Source: Maylandia zebra (Eukaryota; Chordata; Actinopteri; Cichliformes; Cichlidae). Taken from it: 64,000 nt of DNA. The translations under genes were made by a program, and so were the position numbers. The notes beneath the pieces are model-generated. The model ran no database searches. It worked only from the letters and a program-made list of their open reading frames with translations, and had not been told where the DNA came from. The stretch spans positions 24,030,560-24,094,559 of the forward strand of contig NC_135177.1 in assembly GCF_041146795.1 (NCBI RefSeq), written 5' to 3'. Of this stretch, positions 13,423-60,389 are shown in pieces. Every line of letters begins with the position of its first letter. Positions within the stretch are counted from its first letter, which is position 1.

Positions 13423-15530
13423 TTGGCTAAAGCAGCATCACTCAGTGTAACAATGAACCAAAAGCACAGGATTCACCCAGCTGCAGATTTTTTGCCTTTG
13501 CGACAGGGCTTTGTTCAGTATATGTGCGCAGGTGTGTGGGTGAATGTTCAGCGTGAATACGTATGTTTGCATGCAGATAAAGTGTAGTGTTTCCTTCGTC
13601 TTTGTTCACTTTATTCAGTGCAGAGGTAATGTACTGCACCGAAATTGGTTTTATTCCACATCTCCTATTCTCCAATCGCCCATCTCGCCTTCTTTGTTAC
13701 TAGAGCCTTTTTTTTTGTTTTTTTTTTTGTTTTTTGTGCCAACTATATGTTTACGCTAAAAATTACCAGCAGAACTTGCACAAGAACAGTTGGGTCAAAA
13801 GAACAGTCTGATAAATATAAAGTTGCCTTTCTCTGTTTCTTGCCTAGATGTTGGTAGTAGCATCATAAACTGGTTCCACTGGCTGTATTCTTTCTCTTTG
13901 AGCATTTTAACTATGCTTTTTGTGCCTGAGACCGAGGAGTGTAAGAAACCTCCAAATTGACAGTCATGCAGATGTCACCATCCTCGTTGCCTGAGAGTAG
14001 AGTACATCTTTTAGATTTCGGTAGTTGTTACACAGCCAGGCATGATTAATGACGCTTTCCTGCCTAGAAAGTACTTCATATCAGCTAGTCTACTCCTAAT
14101 AGCATTTTAAAGTCGCGTAGGGCTTTAAGGCAACAGCAAAAAGAAAAATGGTGAATATTGCTTTGATTTTTTTGTGATGTGAATTTAATGCTTTACAGGC
14201 ATGCATTGAATTAACTCTTGTTGCTCTCGCTACTCGATGATATTGTATAAGGGCAAGATGAGAACAAAAATCAGCTTTTTTTTTTTTTTTTTTTTCTTTT
14301 TTTTCTCCTACAAAATAGTTTAGAGCTGATTGAACCATGCTAAGTATTTTTAGATGCATGCTTTGTGGACGGCGAGATTTCGTACAAACAAACGAGCACA
14401 GATTTCCCGAGCACAGACTCCATCCTGGGGATCTCACAATCAAAAACCGAGTTACTTTTAACTATCAGCTGTATGGCTGAAAACGGGACCTATCAAGTAA
14501 TTTCACTGTGCAGGGGCCATTTTATTCAAAGTCATACTGAGAGCATTTTACACATGTGTAAATAAAATTGCCCCTGCACAAGGTCATTGTAAGCAAATAG
14601 AAACAAAACACCAGTGTTTGATGTGCATTTATTATTATCTCTTAGCTTATAAGCTTTGTATGATATAAATCATGGTCCTGTTTTTCCTAAGTATTAAGGT
14701 TGCATACGCAGCAGTACTACAATAACCTGTCCTGGCAGCAGAGCGATAGAAATGTAGAGGCATTCCAGTTCTAGGTAGCAATGTTTAAAAACACAGACCA
14801 AATCTTTCTGTTTAGAGCTTAAGATCAATAAAACGGTTACATGGGATTTGATGTTGTAACATTCAAGCGTGGTTTTTGTTTGTTTGTTTGACCTAAGTTT
14901 CTGGTCAGTTTCTCCCGTTGCCATGATTACCACTATTCTTGCCATTACTTAACTTTTGTACGTTTAGTCTGTTCGTGTCAGTTATATACTATTTTATTCT
15001 TTTCTTGCTGTTCTGTATTTTGCTAATTAAAGCTTACATTTATTTGGTTTCATTTTAACCTGGCGCTGTGCCTTCTCCATTATTCTATCCTATTGTTCCT
15101 TCTGAATTGAGCCTGGTTTGCAGCCACAGAAATGAATTCCTCAGTAAGAAAATTGCTGCTTGCGCTTGCAATTGAGCCTGGTGCAGTAAATCACCAGAAT
15201 GACTAACAAAACATGGCAATAGTGATTCAGCATTGCATGCTATCTGTGGAAGCAGTGGTGGAATTTCCTCTAGTATTATGTCCTGTGTTTCCACCGACTA
15301 CTCCACCTTTGTGGCCCTGCCTTTGTCATCACCATGTGATATAAACTCTACCATAATGCCTTCATGGCTGCGTTCATCGGGCATTGCATTGTGTTACATC
15401 CTATTGTATTACATGTGGATGCCTTGTCCTTTCATATAACTTTTTATACGTTTGATATGTGTGAATGTCTTACATTATTCTAGTCCTATCCATCCTTTTT
15501 GGCTGTATCAAAAAATAAAGAGAAATGTTA
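13423..15530 (+). other. zyx 3'UTR and downstream flank
   Basis: Non-coding sequence follows the zyxin stop. The first clear polyadenylation signal is AATAAA at 14561-14566, giving a 3'UTR of about 1.15 kb. A later AATAAA at 15514-15519 could mark a longer isoform or belong to something else. T-rich tracts occur at 13709-13735 and 14276-14305. Confidence 0.55.
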
Positions 15531-23838: not shown

Positions 23839-23917
23839 ACATCACAGACATTAAACTAGTGCAATTTCACTTTTTAAACTAGGATTTATCCCATGATGTT
23901 GATGCTCAAAGTTGCTT

Positions 23918-23922
23918 ACACA

Positions 23923-23978
<56 letters not shown>

Positions 23979-23982
23979 CACA
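23918..23982. repeat. (CA)n microsatellite
   Basis: About 65 bp of nearly pure CA repeat with one CG interruption near the right end. Confidence 0.95.
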
Positions 23983-24129
23983 AAATATATTGAACAAAAG
24001 TTAGACTTTGGCTTCAGAATGTTACAATTGGAAGTGGGTTTAAAATTCATTTGGCTTCATTTAGGTGAGCAAACATGTGTTTTTGAGCCCTGAAATGCAG
24101 TGACTAAAAATATCTGGTTCATAGTAACA

Positions 24130-37286: not shown

Positions 37287-40040
37287 GCAAGGCAAGGCAA
37301 GGCAAGTTTATTTGTATAGCACAATTCAACAACAAGGTGATTCAAAGTGCTTTACAGAGACATTAGAAACAAGAACAAATAAAAAGCATGATTTAAAATT
37401 GATTAAAACAAGCAAATAAACTAACTAACTAATTAACAAACAAACAAACAACAGTATATAAAATCAAAACAGATAAAATCAGAACAGTAGATAAAATCAG
37501 TAGTTAAATTTAAGTTTTGAAATTTAAGCTTAAAGTGTGGATTTGGTGCTTTATTCAAATGCAGCTGAGAACAGGTGAGTCTTCAACCTGGATTTAAATA
37601 AACTGAGTGTTTCAGCTGATCTGAGGCTTTCTGGGAGTTTGTTCCAGATATAAGGAGCATAAAAGCTGAATGCAGCTTCTCCGTGTCTGGTTCTGACTCT
37701 GGGAACTGATAAAAGACCGGATCCAGATGACCTGAGGGATCTGGATGGTTCATACTGGGTCAGGAGGTCATTGATGTATTTTGGTCCTAAACCATTCAGA
37801 GCTTTATAGGCCAGCATCAGAACTTTAAAGTCTATCCTCTGACGGACAGGCAGCCAGTGTAAGGACCTCAGAGCTGGACTGATGTGGTCCACTTTTTTGG
37901 TCTTAGTGAGGACTCGAGCAGCAGAGTTCTGAATGAGCTGTAGTTGTCTGACTGATTTTTTAGGTAGACCTGTAAAGATGCTGTTACAGTAATCAAGCCT
38001 ACTAAAGATGAATGCATGGACTAGTTTTTCCAGGTCCTGTTGAGACATCAGATCTTTTATCCTTGATATATTCTTGAGGTGATAGTAAGCTGACTTTGTT
38101 ATTGTCTTAATGTGTTTTTCTAAGTTTAGGTCTGCATCCATCACTACACCCAAATTTCTCGCCTGGTTTGTGGTTTTTAGATGTATAGATTGAAGTTCTC
38201 TGGTGACCTGTAATCGTTTTTCTTTGGTGCCAAAGACTATTACCTTAGTTTTGTTTTTGTTTAGCTGGAGAAAATTGTGGCACAACCAGTCATTGATTTC
38301 CTCAATGCATTTACCAAGAGCCTGTACAGGGCCTCGGTCTCCTGGTGACATTGTGATATATATTTGTGTGTCATCTGCATAGCTATGATAGTTTATTTTG
38401 TTGTTGTTTATAATCTGTGCCAGTGGGAGCATGTAGATGTTAAACAGAAGGGGTCCCAAGATGGAACCTTGGGGAACTCCACATGTGATACTTGTCTGCT
38501 CAGATGTGAAGTTACCTATTGATACAAAGTATTTCCTGTTTTCTACGTATGTTTTGAACCAGTTTAGTACAGTTCCTGAAAGACCTGTCCAGTTCTCCAG
38601 TCGTTTGAGTAATATGTTGTGGTCAACTGTATCAAATGCTGCACTGAGATCCAGTAAAACTAGGACTGACATTTTTCCACTGTCTGTATTCAGACATATG
38701 TCATTAAACACTTTGGTCAGAGCGGTTTCAGTGCTGTGGTTCTGTCTAAAACCTGACTGGAAGGCATCGTAGCAATTATTCTGTTTTAAGAAGTAACTGA
38801 GCTGTTGAGAAACTGCTTTTTCAATGATCTTACTTAAAAACGGGAGATTTGAGATCGGCCTGTAGTTGTTCATTTGTGTCTTGTCAAGATTGTCCTTTTT
38901 CAGTATAGGTTTGATTACAGCAGTTTTTAGTGATTCTGGAAACACACCTGATAATAAAGAAAAGTTGACGATCTGTAACAGGTCTGACTCTAAAGTCTTT
39001 GAGACCTTTTTGAAAAAACTTGTTGGCAGGACATCTAAACAGCAGGAGGAGGAGTTCAGTTGACCTAAGATGTCCTCCAGGTCTTTGCTGTTAATAGGTT
39101 GAAACTGTTTCATGGTGTTTAAACAGTTTTTTGGTGGACACAGTACATATCCTGGATCTGCTGTTGATGTACCAATTGCTTGTCTAATTTTTTGGATTTT
39201 TTCAGTGAAGAATTTGGCAAAGTCATTGCAGGCCATGGTCGAATGAAGTTCAGCTGCCACTGACACAGGAGGGTTTGTTAGCCTGTCAACTGTAGAAAAT
39301 AAGACCCGAGCATTATGGCTGTTTTTAGTGATGATGTCAGAGAAGTAGGACCTCCTTGCATTCCTCAGTTGTAAATTATAATTGTGAAGTTTCTCTTTAT
39401 AAATGTCATAATGAACCTGGAGGTTTGTTTTTCTCCATCTGCGCTCAGCTTTCCTACACTCTCTTTTTTCATTTTTCACCAGTGTGGAGTTTCTCCATGG
39501 AGACTTTTTCCTTCCAGAGATAACCTTCACCTTAATGGGAGCAATAGTGTCCATTACATTTAACATGTTAGCATTGAAGCTATTGACGAGCTCATTGACT
39601 GACCCTCTGGGCAGGTCAGGTGTTAATGGGAAGACCTGGTTAAAAATTGCACTACTGTGTTCAGTTATACACCGTTTTGTGATCACTGTTGTTGAGATAT
39701 TTGTGTGGGCTGAGATTTTACTTTCAAAGAAAACACAGTAATGATCAGACAGGCCCACATCAGACACAGTAACCTTTGAAATGCTCAGGCCTTTGGAGAT
39801 CAGTAGGTCAAGAGTGTGTCCTCTATTATGTGTGGCCTCTGTTACATGCTGAGTCAGCCCAAAGTTGCCCAGAGTGTTACTCAGGTCTTTAGTCCCTTTG
39901 TCCTGAGGGTTGTCCACATGAATGTTAAAATCCCCAGCAATAATTACACAGTCAAAATCAACACAGATCACAGACAGCAGTTCACTGAGGTCATTAAAAA
40001 AGTCTGTGCAGTATTTGGGAGGCCTGTAACTATAATATAG
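37287..40040 (-). mobile_element. L2-type LINE, 5'-truncated, long open frame
   Basis: A 2.75-kb non-LTR retrotransposon lies antisense to its neighbours. Its 3' end, on the left, has the L2-style tail (GCTATACAAATAAACTTGCC) followed by an AAGGC pentamer array at 37286-37305. The 5' end breaks off within the endonuclease near 40040, the ordinary result of incomplete reverse transcription. I found no unambiguous target duplication. An open frame of about 830 codons suggests a recent insertion. Clade (L2 within the CR1/L2 group) is assigned from the RT sequence style and tail. Confidence 0.85.
37551..40040 (-). CDS. LINE ORF2: partial endonuclease plus reverse transcriptase
   Basis: The open frame starts inside the apurinic-like endonuclease (YRPPKYCTDFF; GDFNIHVDNP; LSDHYCVFF) and runs through a complete reverse transcriptase: NNYRPISNLPFLSKIIEKAV, SVLVLLDLSAAFDTVDH, CGVPQGSILGPLLFNIYM and the catalytic YADDTQIY. 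A C-terminal region follows (RLDYCNSIFTGLPKKSV; LHWLPVRQRIDFK). It lacks the N-terminal part of the endonuclease, so the copy cannot be autonomous. The window frame opens at 40079 with 13 or so non-LINE codons from the flank. A real start codon for the element is not present. Confidence 0.85.
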   Translation of the reverse strand, partial: LYYSYRPPKYCTDFFNDLSELLSVICVDFDCVIIAGDFNIHVDNPQDKGTKDLSNTLGNFGLTQHVTEATHNRGHTLDLLISKGLSISKVTVSDVGLSDHYCVFFESKISAHTNISTTVITKRCITEHSSAIFNQVFPLTPDLPRGSVNELVNSFNANMLNVMDTIAPIKVKVISGRKKSPWRNSTLVKNEKRECRKAERRWRKTNLQVHYDIYKEKLHNYNLQLRNARRSYFSDIITKNSHNARVLFSTVDRLTNPPVSVAAELHSTMACNDFAKFFTEKIQKIRQAIGTSTADPGYVLCPPKNCLNTMKQFQPINSKDLEDILGQLNSSSCCLDVLPTSFFKKVSKTLESDLLQIVNFSLLSGVFPESLKTAVIKPILKKDNLDKTQMNNYRPISNLPFLSKIIEKAVSQQLSYFLKQNNCYDAFQSGFRQNHSTETALTKVFNDICLNTDSGKMSVLVLLDLSAAFDTVDHNILLKRLENWTGLSGTVLNWFKTYVENRKYFVSIGNFTSEQTSITCGVPQGSILGPLLFNIYMLPLAQIINNNKINYHSYADDTQIYITMSPGDRGPVQALGKCIEEINDWLCHNFLQLNKNKTKVIVFGTKEKRLQVTRELQSIHLKTTNQARNLGVVMDADLNLEKHIKTITKSAYYHLKNISRIKDLMSQQDLEKLVHAFIFSRLDYCNSIFTGLPKKSVRQLQLIQNSAARVLTKTKKVDHISPALRSLHWLPVRQRIDFKVLMLAYKALNGLGPKYINDLLTQYEPSRSLRSSGSGLLSVPRVRTRHGEAAFSFYAPYIWNKLPESLRSAETLSLFKSRLKTHLFSAAFE

Positions 40041-40279
40041 ATTAACTATAATAACCTTGATAAAAATACAAAAGACCATCTCTAAACGGAGTACATCTTG
40101 GACGCTCTTGCATACCTGTTATTGTTTATTACCTATATGATAATTTGAGTATTACACCTGTAATTGGCCGTACTTTGGATGGCAGTTGATTCTTCCTTCG
40201 GTGTTGGGTGCGCTCTGGAGATAACCAATCAGATCAGCTCTATCTCGGTCCGGAAGCTGTGTTGTTTACATTTTCCAAG
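40041..40279 (+). promoter_or_regulatory. ing4 promoter and 5'UTR
   Basis: Only about 240 bp separate the LINE break point from the ing4 ATG. A YY1-type element, CCAAGATGGCGGC, overlaps the start codon (40275-40287), a common arrangement in TATA-less housekeeping promoters. No TATA box is seen. Confidence 0.55.
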
Positions 40280-49228: not shown

Positions 49229-49638
49229 GTGAGCTTTATGTTTATAAACTATAAGAAGTTGGTAGTTTGTTGTTGAAGCCATTTCCGTTTTTCAATAATG
49301 TAACTGCGTACAAGATACTGAGCTAGCCCTGCTAATTAGCCCGCTAACTGCGTTAGCAGTAGCTGTTTTGCTTTGGTTAGCTAAACCCACAAAAATAAAT
49401 GTTAGTCTTTGGTAAATAGAAGTAATTCTTCACATGGGCTGGAGTGTCTTAGAGAGTGTTATGCTGCACTTTAGCTCCTTAGGTAGGATCAAGAACGAGT
49501 TAAATTTTAAATGTGTTTAGTCGAATATTCGACTATCTCGCTTTGTAAAACAGTAGATATCAAGTAATATCAAATTCTTTCCCAACAGGAGCTAAGTTAG
49601 TTAAACATACAAATAAAGGCTGTCTTAATGATTCAGGG

Positions 49639-50594
49639 ATGTCGTGGGACTTCTTTGTACCTGTGTGCGTGGGGGACCTTGTGAAGACTGGGGGGATCAA
49701 CCAGTACGTCGTTCAGGATGTGGTCTCCGCAAAACAGCTCCCGTCCTGTCTCAACAGTAAGTTGTCAACATGTAGGCAGGTCACTGATAGTTTTTGGGGT
49801 TTTTTTGTTCTTTGGGGGGTTATTTTTTTAAACAAAATGTAGAACATCTTCACAGAAGGCATCACATTTTCTTCAAACACCTCCAACAAGTCATTACCAT
49901 CCAAGAATTGTCCCGCGCTAAGAATCTTTTTACTAACTTGTGTGTAACACCAACCTGCCAGAGGGTCTGCAGATGGAAATTAGCTAAAATTAAAAAATAA
50001 TTATAGTACTGGATTGCACCCAGCTTCTTATGTGTATATCACCATCCCCTAAAACAAACAGACCCTTCAGTGATGGGTCGAGCCACTACTTAAGTCTCAG
50101 ACACAATTATATAAATCTTTCCCAAGATTCCTGCTCATGTAACCACACCCCCAAGTAAGGTTAATTAAAATACCTATGTACTTGCATTTTTTGTTTTGAT
50201 TTTTTTACCCAAAATGACAAAATGTTGTCACTCTTCGAATACTTGGGGATGATTGTGCTAGTTTATTTGTTTATTTTTTTTTAAATTCTGTTTCACACAG
50301 AATTCAAGGCAGCATTAAGGAGTCAGGGGCCTTTGTGTATACTAGAGCACTTCGACACTGGCTACAGTGTGCTGCAGTAAGTGTTTTCATGTATTGCCCA
50401 CTTTTATTTATTGTGACTATTACTGTACAAAACAACTGTCTTTGTTTCTTTAGGCACTGTAAGGCGGTAGATCTGGCTGTTAAAGAAGATACTCTGGAAT
50501 TACTAGTACAAGGTTGCTTTTTTTTTTAAAGAAATAATATTTTCTTGATGTTTAAATTGATAACTTTGATTTGTTGATGTGCTCACATAACCTG

Positions 50595-50632
<38 letters not shown>

Positions 50633-53600
50633 CCTTGCCTTTCAGTGGTTAGTGGGCTGTCTGTTTCACTGCCGAGCATCCTTGTCTCCACCTCCCTGTC
50701 AGCTGCAGAGCGCAAGGAAAAACTTAACGCAGTTAAAATGAGCGTCTTCCTGCTTTGCAAACTCACAGAGAACCTGGAGAGTGATTCCTATAGGCAGAAT
50801 ATTGTCACAGCACCTGGGAAGGTATGCTCATTGCTTACTTAGCTAAAGGGTTCTTTGCATATGCCTGTTATCATAAATGTCCACTGATGAGCTTTAACTA
50901 GCTTTATGATTCAGTCAAACTAAGAGATTGAGTTTCTAGCCTGTTGTTATGTGGTTATTCTTGGTTGTGTGGTAGAGTGTTATTGCACTGCTGTAAGGGC
51001 CCACCCAGAGGGAAATTGACACTTTCTATGCTGTGCCACTTCAAGAGAAATTGGGTAGTATAAGCAGAAGCTGTCAAACAATGTGTGGATGTTTGCCATT
51101 GTGTGCATAATGATCAGCTAGCAAGAGGCTATCAGTCTCTGTATAGTTGGTTTGGCTGGTGTGAATTGTTTTCTTTGGTAATCTGAGGACATGTATTGTG
51201 ATTTACTTGATCTCAATACTATATTAAAGATTTTATAGTCCAACATCTATGAAGCTTAACTGCTCTTTTTATGTTGTACAGGGTGGTAAAAAAGGCAAAG
51301 CATGTGGAGAAGGACTTGTGCAGTGGGACTCAGAAAGAGAGCAGGTGCTACAGGCACTTGTGCAGCTCTTCCAATTGGACATCCGTTCACTGTGGAGCCT
51401 CTCCTTGGTGGAGGAAGAGTTCATCAGGTACTCTGCTGTCAGGAGAGCTCTGGCAGAGAATACAGTATCACGTTTTGCTGGTTTAATTCAGTTAGTTGGT
51501 GTCATTTACAACTTATCCATATCACTTCCGAGCATTCGGAACTCTGTAGCTTAATTGGAACTCTTATGACAAAGATGTGTGACTCTTCATTAATAATCTA
51601 CAATATCTAATAAGGTTAGAAGAAATTTGGACTGTGGTAAATTGCCCAATGTAATGGTTTCGTTATGCACATTTCCTCACTTTCCACTTGTTTTATGGTT
51701 CTCAGTAAGGATATTCAGTAAATTTTTTGTCAGTAGACATTTATGTGGTAGTTTAACACTCACAACACTCCTAGCAGCACTTACCTCAGCTTTTAACATG
51801 CACTGTGTGTATCTGATGCTTCTGATGAATTCAAAACCTTGTCTACTACTCATTGTGGATTTTTGGTAACTTTTCATCCAGGTATTACCATAATCTAATA
51901 TATAAAAAAACACACATTTATCTCTTCTTAGCTGTGTGACCTGCTGCTGCTACAAGCTCCTTGAGAACCCAACCATCAGCCATGTCAAGAGTAAACCCAC
52001 CAGAGACTGTGTAATCCACCTCCTGGGGTTGCTGATTAAGAAATATAATCACCTCCTGGGTGAGTTGGTCAGACAAATGCAGTCCTATTACCGAGGAAAC
52101 AAATTAATCCTGTCACTTTTGAGAATATTGTCTGTAAATGGTGGTGGTGGGGGCCACTATAAGGTGTTCAGCTTTTCGGGAGACATAGCTGACTTGTAAG
52201 GTTTTTTTTTTATTTGTCCTCTAAACTGTCACAGGTGCTGGTGTAAAAGTGATCCAGATGCTTCAACATTTTGAGCAGTTGTCATCAGTGTTTGCCCAGG
52301 CTGTGTCTGTGTGGAGCACAGAGTACGGAGTCAGAGCTATCATAGGAGAAGTCATACGGTCTGTACAATTTTTGTGTGTATACAGTATCCAGTATGCAGC
52401 TTGATTTCGTGAATCTGTTTGTGAAGTCTTATTTTGTGTTACAAATTCCTGTCTTTGTTTGTTTTTGTTTTTTTGTTGTTTTTTTTATCTCAGGGAGATT
52501 GGTCAGAAGTCAAGTGAGGAGTTGGCCAGAGAGGGGTCGGGAGTCAAAGCCTTTGCCTCCTTCCTCTCAGAAGTCAGTGCTTTGGTGCCTGAATTGATGA
52601 TTCCCAACATCAGTGTTCTCATCACACACCTGGAAGGAGAGGTATGAGCACCGAACAGTGAGTAATTGATTGCAGCTCATGAATAAGAAAATTATTGTCC
52701 TTACATAAGTAGAGGCTGCCTGCCATATTGATTGGGTATAAACAATTGCTAATTAGAGGTCTATGTGATCATGTAAAACAGCACCAATTAATATTAATGA
52801 CTCATCACAGTGACAGCCTTGATGTGTGAGCAACAGGGTTGCTCATTAAAGGAACTGTCCCTGTGTGAGCCCACAAGGAGTGGGCAGTTTTAAATCATCA
52901 CAAACCTCTGCTCCTTGTGCTTCTTAAGTGCTTTTTTTTTTTAATGTCCTGTGTTGAGTTTTATGTAGTTTTGTTGGTCTAGGACAGACTGGGAAAGGAT
53001 CCATTACACTTTGGTCAAGTTTGTTGCTTTTAAATGTGTTATAGAAATAAAAGTGACGTTGACATCTACAATTCTTTTACAGTTGTCAAGATCCTGTCTT
53101 AGAAGTGGGTTGTCATTGGTTTTTGAAGTAATGCAAACACAAGATTAAAAAGGAATATAACAGTGTGGGATGAGCAAGCAGCATTCACTTTATTATTCTC
53201 TGCTATAGCCAGGAGACACTGTTTCTTGTATTTGGCTGGGTAACACACCACTGGACACAATACATTTTTTTAAGACAAGACAAGGAAGGGTCTTTACAGC
53301 TCTAGTAAAATTTTATATAGTGCTTACATTACTCAGAGTAACAGGTAATGATTGGCTCAGATATTTACACTATTTTTCTCTGTTGCAATGGTCACTGTGT
53401 CAGATTCGGCAATTACAAAGTCATGAATCTTGCCTTTTTGTGACTGAGAGCCATGACAGACTGCACATTAATTCTCTTTCAGTCATGCTTCGTGTCTTTC
53501 ACAGTGTACAAGATATTGTTGGAAGGTTGCTTGCTAGGGATTTACAGGAAAAGAATCTAAATAGACCTCTGCATGATACTGGCTGTCTTCTGTCACTTCA

Positions 53601-54229
53601 TACCTAGATACATTGGCAATGTCAGTCCTTTGTTTTTGTCATGATTTGTACCCAGCTGTGCAGTTGAAAGAAACCCACAAGGCATCGCAGGTGTAATGTC
53701 AGTTTTCATCCATTATAGTGCATTATGTGAGAGCACAGAGCATGTGTTACACCCATTTTGACCCTTGAAGACTCCCTTTTTCATTCACATTTGGTCATAA
53801 TCATGTCTTTATCATATAGTCTAAATCTGCCATTGCATACTTCACGTCTGTTTTTACTGTTTCCAACTTTTCAGCAAAATACTGTTTCTCAGTTATTTCT
53901 AAGCTATCTAATGATTGTGTCCTAAAACTGCAAATTCAAGGGCATTTTTTATTTCAATCAAAGTACATTATCGTTAAAAGCAGAACAGAGTATTCTGCCC
54001 TGTGATGAGACCAAGGCGAATACGAGCTTACTGAATGAGAGCTGGGTTTCTCTTGCCTTGACTGGCAGGTAATCTTGGCAGTGCAGAGGAGGATTCCTGC
54101 TCTGCTGTAAGGGCCTGCCTACAGTGACTTGGCTCGACCCAAATTATTCCTCTGCAGTCACAGTGGAGTAATTTCTGGGTTGTCGCTGACAGCGTGTGTC
54201 TTATGTCTGTGTGTGTGTGTTTGTGTGCT

Positions 54230-54265
<36 letters not shown>

Positions 54266-57200
54266 AAAAAGGCAAGAAGTTCACCCAGCTTTCTTTACTG
54301 TTCAGTGAGCCATGAGTTTTGTCTTTGGTAATCTGAGGGCAGAGTTCTTAGTGAGGTTTTTCTGTTTTTGTAGGATTTAACAGATTGTTTCACTGAAATT
54401 CTTAATTTCCAACCTTTTTCATTTCTTTTTCCCAGAGTCACACAATGCGTGTTGCTGTCTGTGAGGTGCTGGGAGAGATCCTTGTGAGGGTCCTGTGCGG
54501 TGATGGGCTAGATGAGTCCGGTAGAGCTGACCGTGACCGTTTCTTTGACACACTGCAGGAGCATCTGCATGACTCGCACTCTCATGTCAGAACACGTGTA
54601 CTGCAGGTCTACACACGCATCGTCAATAGCAAAGTAGGTTTGCTCATCAGCTATTGTGTTTGTAAAAGAATGCTGTTGCTCCTGGTAACATAAGTCATCT
54701 GTGTTTAGGCGCTGCCCCTGTGTCGGTATAGCGAGGTGATGGAGCTTGCTGTTGGACGGCTGATGGACAAATCTATAAATGTGGTTAAGAGTTCCATCCA
54801 ACTGCTGGCTGCCTTCATAGCACACAATCCTTATAGCTGCAAGGTAAATAACTATGCGTCAAACTCTAAATAGCAGGTGTTCTTCAGGTTTCCTGATATA
54901 ATAGAATATTTATCTTGTCTTTCAGCTGAGCAGCGCAGATCTGAAGAAACCACTGGAGAAGGAGACTTCTAAACTCAGAGAATTGAAAGAGAAACTGGAG
55001 GGGACAGCACCTGGTAAACAAAACCTGAGTGATTATTCATAAGTATTGCTATGAATCTCCCCTGATGTTTTATTTTATTATTTAAGACTAATTCACATTT
55101 TGCCCTGTGATGAGACCAAGGCGAATATGAGCTTGCTGAATGAGAGCTGGGTTCCTCTTGCCTTGACTGGCAGGTAATCTTGGCAGTGCAGAGGAGGATT
55201 CCTGCTCTGCTGTAAGGGCCTGCCTACAGTGACTTGGCTCGACTCGAATTATTCCCTTAAAGTTATAGCGGAGTAACCACGAGGATGAAGCTCACAGTGT
55301 GTGTTTGTGTGTAAGGGGCAAGAAGTTCACCCAGCTCTCACTGCTGTTCAGTCAGCCATGAGCTGTTTCTTTGGTAATCTGAGGGCCAAGTTCAGAAATT
55401 CGCTTAAATTCAGCATGCCATGTATGTCATCACAAGCAAACAGAAAACAAACCATTGTTTCAGAATTTAAACATCTGTTAAGTGTGAGATCCAGTTATTA
55501 AACAAAATGTTTTTTTTAAAGATGTCTTTCATCTGATGTAACCATATTCATGCTGAAAACAGAAATACGTTTTGTAATTGGTTTGATGAATAGCAATACA
55601 GCATAAATGATGAACTATAATATTTATTTTTAGATAAGTTGTTTGTTTGTTTTAAACTTTTGAAGAAATCTGTTCTTGTTTGTTTAATCTGTTTTTCACA
55701 ATGGGGAAAAATATTAACTAGTTTACTACATTGCCAGAAATCAGAACATTTAAATTTTTTATTAGCTTTAGAAGAATGACAAGTTTAAATATGAGGACTC
55801 TGGAGCCCACCATTCCTTACTAAATTCTTGGCCTAAACAACAATCATCTTACCATTTTGTCCTGCTGCTAAATTATTCTGTTTTTAATCTCTGTTGGCAC
55901 ATTGTTGTACTTTTACTTTTTTCATTTTCTTTTTTTCTCTCTTTCTCTTTGTAGGTCTAAGCTGAGTCATCACCATTGAATTTATTTTATTTTTTTCTCT
56001 TTCCCTCCCGGCAGTGGCAGTGATTAAAGCATCTGAGCTGTGGGCTGCTATGGTGCCTGAGCTCCTCGTCACTGTCAGGAAAGAACTGGAGCCCACAAGC
56101 GAAGAAGAGAAGGAGCAGCAGGAGGACGAGGAAGGCGGGGAGGTGGAGGAGGAAAAGGAGGCAGAAGACGACAGAGCAACCGCGGTGAAGATAGCTCAGT
56201 ACCTCCGTGTCAACAAGTACAGGTGATGATAATCACCAGTGGAGGCCTGTGTAGTGTCACTAACTGGAGGATTTTTTTTCCTCCCTTGCTGTCAGTAGCC
56301 TACAATTTTCATTTTTTATTTATTTTTTTTAATGGGGCTTTTCTTTTGTGTTGCATTCTACAGGGATGCTGTGCAGCTCAGTATAAGAGCTCACAGCTGC
56401 TTCCCAGAATCTGAGATGTTTACTTCTCTGTCCACTCTCACACCTGAGAATATGATGGACACACTGGCTCTGATTTTCAAAGGTAAAAGTTGTACTCAGT
56501 GTGTCTGAAAATTGCTCTTCCTGGTGACATTTAATAGAAGTTGTATTGAGAACATAAACATGTTTTTGTTTTGTCCCTGGGGGGTGTTTTTACAGCTGTC
56601 TCATTTGTAATGTGCACCATTCAGCCATGACATTAAAACCACTTAAGTGAATAACATCAGCTTTCTTTTTACAATGCAATATTTCGCTGGTTCCTAGCAT
56701 ACATTACTTTGGGAAATACTCCCACCTGTTCACACATCATTGGCTCAGAAACTGCGTAAAGAACATGAAAAAGAACCTAGCATGTACGCCATGACACCAA
56801 ATGTCTTCATTTGCAGCATTCTTGTAACTCCATCTGCTGCAACTGGAAAAAAACCCAACATTTTTTATTATTATTATTATGTAATTAAAGGTGAGAGGGT
56901 TTGCTATTGGTGGCCCTGTGCCAGACAATACAATATGTGCCCAGACTTCACACGCCTCGTCTTGAACCCATCCAAATTATTATTATTATTTTTAAAAAGG
57001 ACTTGGAAAGTGGTAGGCAGTTCGGTTTTATGTTTTAATTTGGAACGTTTTGTTTTTTTTTATCTCATACAGTTTCATAAACAGTTGAGCTGCAGTCAAA
57101 CAACGTTTTAAACTTGGTTGATTGAACGCCCATTTGATCTTAAGTGTACAATACTTGACATTTTCCTCAGGCTCTGATGATGACACTTCCGAGCTCAACC

Positions 57201-59974: not shown

Positions 59975-60007
<33 letters not shown>

Positions 60008-60389
60008 GTATGTGTGTATGTGTGTATATATATATATGTGTGTATGTGTGTATATATATATATATGTGTGTATGTGTGTATATATATAGATAGATTTATT
60101 TATTTAAAAAAAAAAAAAAAAAAGCAGTGACAGAGAGGAAGAGTAAAGAGTCTATCTGCAGTCCACCCACACTGCTGCCTCTCTTCATCCAGCATCACTA
60201 GCATTCATAACCTATTAAACCTTATGTGCTTCTCCTCACCCATCCTCCTACAAGTGTTATCTGGTCTGTAGCCTAGCGCTGGTAAGGCCAGCATGGAGCA
60301 TTCAGGGTAATGTAGGGCAGAGATGTTCTTACTTCTCTTTGTATAATCACATGATCAGTTAGAACTATAAAATCTGTACTTAGTTCTCT

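Follow-up and report, generated by a model that had tools for sequence, protein, structure and literature searches.

A probable family of three U85-type scaRNAs in the introns of ncapd2 of Maylandia zebra

Introduction

How many U85-type RNAs does the ncapd2 gene of Maylandia zebra carry, does each retain the guides for loop 1 of U5 snRNA, and how did they come to share one host? Human U85 (SCARNA10) is tabulated as the guide for Cm45 and Psi46 of U5, and the copies described here agree with it in host gene (NCAPD2), in targets (U5 C45 and U46) and in chimeric C/D-H/ACA layout; however, the published tables consulted give one U85 for human NCAPD2, as against three copies at this locus. An initial annotation of the DNA had recognized two copies and had proposed that both guides are intact in each. 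We analyzed the window, meaning the whole stretch of 64,000 nucleotides (NC_135177.1, positions 24,030,560 to 24,094,559), for the number, architecture and divergence of these RNAs.

Results

The Rfam model RF01296 (snoU85; U85/SCARNA10) spans model positions 1-329 and has a gathering score of 41. Both intervals that had initially been assigned to U85-type RNAs, copies B and C here, match the model over its full length above that score, copy C with 61.5 bits (E 3.5e-13) and copy B with 49.4 bits (E 1.1e-9), and the outer limits of 53994-55388 proposed for the pair lie no more than 3 bases from those of the matches. The proposed copy number of two, however, was wrong: a third copy, A, had been overlooked, and it surfaced only once the covariance threshold was lowered (32.5 bits over model positions 1-329, with E 7.4e-5 calculated on the whole window). 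That listing omits two overlapping matches of lower score to families of the same clan. By gathering score, copies B and C belong to RF01296 and copy A does not; because it falls below the score, we label copy A U85-like, its kinship resting on its other features. Annotation by the Rfam cut-off only would hide copy A and thus under-count in this window. The copies measure 313 (A), 345 (B) and 286 (C) bases.

Table 1. Positions within the window of the host segment, the three scaRNA copies and their elements
Feature	Position	Strand	Remarks
Host segment, exons 2 to 14 of ncapd2 (likely numbering)	49589..56483	+	13 exons placed by hand; end of last exon unsettled
Copy A, divergent U85-like scaRNA	50879..51191	+	intron 5; C box 50885, D box 51183; ends GUCC/GGAC
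Copy B, U85 scaRNA	53997..54341	+	intron 9; C box 54003, D box 54333
Copy C, U85 scaRNA	55102..55387	+	intron 12; C box 55108, D box 55379
5' H/ACA hairpin and H-box region, copy A	50945..51013	+	weakened U46 pocket, 4 + 7 pairs
5' H/ACA hairpin and H-box region, copy B	54059..54127	+	U46 pocket intact, 6 + 7 pairs
5' H/ACA hairpin and H-box region, copy C	55164..55232	+	identical to that of copy B; 6 + 7 pairs
C45 2'-O-methylation guide and box D, copy A	51173..51186	+	exact CTTTGGTAATCTGA; 10 pairs, one G-U
C45 guide and box D, copy B	54323..54336	+	exact match to CTTTGGTAATCTGA; 11 pairs, two G-U
C45 guide and box D, copy C	55369..55382	+	exact match to CTTTGGTAATCTGA; 10 pairs, one G-U
Imperfect UG dinucleotide repeat, copy B	54204..54263	+	Tandem Repeats Finder: period 2, 29.5 copies, 86% matches

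A second model was built from the 5′ H/ACA hairpins of the three copies, so that the scores it gives to these (98.2, 98.2 and 80.5 bits) are high by construction. In the window this model gave 19 matches up to E 5; the 16 that are not the copies all score 15.5 bits or less, and none is a credible further copy. The best of these 16 lies at 14503-14581 on the minus strand (15.5 bits, E 0.013), where the full RF01296 model finds nothing up to E 1.

All three copies lie in sense orientation within introns of ncapd2. The hand-placed exons of the host are preceded by AG in all 13 cases and followed by GT in 12, the exception being the last one, whose end is off. They carry an open frame of 574 aa from the ATG at 49639, which is matched at E 1e-10 or better by four distinct solved sequences (best E 4.4e-37), all named Condensin complex subunit 1, which we take to be the yeast-type counterpart of NCAPD2. 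Because an AG acceptor stands ahead of the ATG exon, one upstream exon was counted; such an exon likely exists, giving introns 5, 9 and 12. The introns 8 and 11 named initially for copies B and C are correct if numbering begins at the ATG exon, and become 9 and 12 when the upstream exon is counted. Copy A lies in intron 5 (50822-51281), 57 bases past the donor site and ending 90 bases before the acceptor site; the corresponding distances are 1355 and 94 bases for copy B in intron 9 (52642-54435), and 88 and 627 bases for copy C in intron 12 (55014-56014).

We then compared the C/D parts of the three RNAs, with all guide pairing drawn against the human U5 sequence, used in place of that of M. 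zebra. Each copy has a box C near its 5′ end, a box D near its 3′ end and ends that pair. The terminal stem reads GUCC/GGAC in copy A and GCCC/GGGC in copies B and C, so that both sides of one pair differ while pairing is kept. Paired with human U5, the C45 guide is intact in all three copies, and in each of them C45 faces the fifth base ahead of box D. Every copy has one exact match to the 14-mer that comprises this guide and box D, and the window contains no other site at up to 2 mismatches. Shuffled sequences, at up to 2 mismatches, contain a mean of 0.75 matches to the 14-mer, and in 4 of 100 the count is three or more; the 14-mer by itself is therefore no proof of a U85 copy. A 16-mer taken from guide and box D was also seen in three viral contigs and was set aside, as it looks like chance, with no Rfam family reaching its gathering score in the three. 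In one of these viral loci (L001) the 10-mer of the pocket is present too, at a distance of about 4.9 kb.

In the H/ACA part, the pocket predicted to present U46 is intact in copies B and C and present in weakened form in copy A, where a single U-U mismatch at U52 of human U5 breaks the left arm. When every register on bases 1-103 of human U5 was compared, the best pocket target was U46 for each copy, with 11 (A), 13 (B) and 13 (C) pairs; the next best had 5. The H box was read at a fixed offset, set from the Rfam consensus, of 14 bases from where the right guide arm starts. The letters there are ACAGUGA in copies B and C and AGAGGGA in copy A, so that in this reading the sixth base is a G rather than the A of ANANNA in all three copies. 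Beyond the 3′ hairpin, each copy has an ACA. By eye, GAG or AGAG stretches (compare CAB motifs) are seen in the hairpins. The folds are more stable than those of dinucleotide shuffles, with z of -2.38 (A), -5.66 (B) and -3.95 (C). The initial description of B and C as chimeric C/D-H/ACA RNAs of the U85 type is borne out, and its view that both guides are intact in both of them also holds, here as in that earlier pairing check with human U5 as the reference.

The divergence among the copies is unevenly distributed. Copies B and C are identical at 253 of 286 aligned bases (88.5%), and copy A is 68.8% identical to B and 67.0% to C. In the alignment of B with C, 59 extra bases, mostly UG-rich, are found in B only. 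A run of 89 consecutive aligned bases, which holds the U46 hairpin with its stems and loop, contains none of the 33 differences; in a permutation test on the longest such run, which assumes independent sites, 0 of 20000 permutations reached 89, the maximum being 87. Conversely, 18 of the 33 substitutions fall at positions 143-192 of copy B, in the 3′ hairpin. The earlier observation that the 3′ hairpin diverges is thus confirmed, and the non-random pattern accords with the earlier statement that the differences are not random decay. An impression gained by eye, that the 3′ hairpin of copy C re-forms with its pairs shifted by one base, was set aside, and we make no claim of it.

We also asked how the B/C differences fall on the predicted folds. 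There was no excess of compensatory changes between the two copies: one was observed on either fold against 0.59 expected, and 929 and 906 of 2000 simulations reach one. Broken pairs numbered 10 on the fold of B against 14.1 expected (168 of 2000 simulations as low; 18 of its 117 pairs fall in gaps and were set aside), and 9 against 14.6 on the 103 pairs of the fold of C (38 of 2000 as low). The initial proposal of a local duplication under constraint stands in part: it is likely, yet gene conversion is also able to yield a run of this length, and the compensatory changes do not exceed what chance would give.

Discussion

These data make it very probable that ncapd2 carries a three-member U85 (SCARNA10) family that arose by duplication within the gene, each copy of which would mark loop 1 of U5. 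We propose that each RNA would be freed from its spliced intron and that a joint C/D and H/ACA particle would form in the Cajal body, where fibrillarin would methylate U5 C45 via the box-D guide and the H/ACA particle would pseudouridylate U46 via the pocket of the 5′ hairpin. Copies B and C would be alike and nearly redundant; copy A would be older or faster-evolving, keeping the C45 guide with a weaker U46 pocket. Expression, particle assembly and target marking in M. zebra, like the age of the duplications, are what we infer from sequence. With one divergent and two near-identical dual guides, the locus would be suited to the question of whether the two marks, C45 methylation and U46 pseudouridylation, are separable.

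A closely similar arrangement has been reported from the pikeperch (Sander lucioperca), in which three expressed U85 RNAs, LOC116049801, LOC116049802 and LOC116049806, lie in ncapd2 introns 5, 9 and 12 (2024; PMC11788885). As reported there, two copies are alike (91.38% identity) and the first is divergent (61.63% and 62.31%), which is the layout found here; this comparison is one of reported layout, not of sequences. The spacing from B to C is 1109 in pikeperch and 1105 here, whereas that from A to B differs more (2815 and 3118), and the lengths are 315, 325 and 321 as against 313, 345 and 286 (PMC11788885). The two look like the same trio, and the duplications most likely predate the split from pikeperch. 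According to the same report all three U85 RNAs are transcribed in pikeperch brain, the intron-5 copy at levels below those of the other two by factors of 11.5 to 67 (ratios that we computed from its Table 8). That study deals with how the RNAs are expressed and how they are predicted to pair with their host gene (PMC11788885), and the words methylation, pseudouridyl, U5 snRNA and paralog are absent from its main text. In the part of the literature searched, mainly open-access papers, we found no report of several U85 RNAs in ncapd2 besides PMC11788885, and no comparison of such copies at the level of their guides. The arrangement in itself is thus already published and mostly ordinary; the guide-level comparison of the copies, made from sequence, may be new. 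In stickleback, SNOU85 is listed among differentially expressed small RNAs.

Chicken GGgCD80 (U85/U89) likewise has NCAPD2 as host and U5 C45 as target, with an 11-nt antisense element in an RNA of 342 nt; however, it lies in intron 3 and one isoform is given, as against three copies here (PMC2653536). The chicken table places U89 beside U85 for the C45 site (PMC2653536), so a second human RNA may share that site. A further parallel in arrangement is the chicken pair GGgCD78/GGgCD79 (U87 and U87/U88-type), two related scaRNAs in introns 9 and 11 of one host; they differ in that this host is ATG16L1 and in their targets, U5 U40 (chicken numbering) and, for GGgCD78, also U4 A66 (PMC2653536). As stated in that study, many snoRNA paralogues cluster in separate introns of a single host, and intragenic duplication is the origin of nearly all chicken snoRNA paralogues (PMC2653536). 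For vertebrate snoRNAs this route is well documented.

The origin of the copies and the likeness of B and C could be read in other ways. An independent, recent duplication specific to the M. zebra lineage would agree with the high identity of B and C (88.5%) and with the likeness of their upstream 200-base flanks, 68.4% against 62.2% (sd 3.4) when shuffled, a slight excess of less than two standard deviations (the shuffled control applies to the upstream flanks; the downstream flanks are 64.0% alike). Yet pikeperch has U85 RNAs in introns of the same numbers, with nearly the same B-to-C spacing even if A-to-B differs, and we regard such a recent origin as very improbable. Gene conversion, rather than selection on each copy, might instead keep B and C alike: the 89 identical aligned bases include stems and loop together. 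Against it, the U46 pocket lies within the unchanged run, and copy A, too, shares an unaltered C45 guide and box D. Conversion would account for the run itself no less well than selection would; on balance we regard it as rather unlikely.

The status of copy A is a separate matter. It could be a decaying relic beside two working genes, its ends persisting since the C/D core stabilizes such RNA; it has the lowest covariance score (32.5 bits), the weakest fold z-score (-2.38) and a U46 pocket interrupted by a mismatch, and the copy at the matching intron position in pikeperch has the lowest reported expression (PMC11788885). Against this, its guide and box D 14-mer is shared unaltered with B and C, the H-box and ACA positions are retained, and its terminal stem has changed on both sides of one pair and still pairs; moreover, the pikeperch U85 at the matching intron position is transcribed (PMC11788885). 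We consider it unlikely that only B and C are working genes, and favor a family of three in which copy A would also function.

The UG repeat of copy B starts some 15 bases past the start of its ACA box and runs for about 60 bases. UG-rich motifs of human scaRNA2, 7, 9 and 28 are reported to bind TDP-43; human U85, by contrast, is not shifted to the nucleolus upon TDP-43 knock-down in the published account. Two CAB motifs direct human U85 to the Cajal body. The repeat is likelier to be a mere microsatellite than a TDP-43 binding site. A division of labour, with copy A acting mainly as a C45 guide with reduced U46 activity and the UG repeat of copy B letting TDP-43 bind, is highly unlikely; if true, the repeat would add a TDP-43-dependent step to a scaRNA that is independent of TDP-43 in human cells.

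Other features of the window

Two further RNA matches were rejected as artefacts. A SCARNA7-like match at 23889-24065 on the minus strand (27.6 bits against a gathering score of 65) rests largely on a GT repeat, and a mir-297 match at 59988-60056 (40.8 bits against 90) lies over an AT/GT dinucleotide repeat. Among the open frames scanned with Pfam, seven matched no family. In the same scan, an open frame of 854 aa at 37554-40115 on the minus strand matched RVT_1 (E 1e-37) and Exo_endo_phos_2 (E 4e-7), and probably belongs to a LINE-type retrotransposon.
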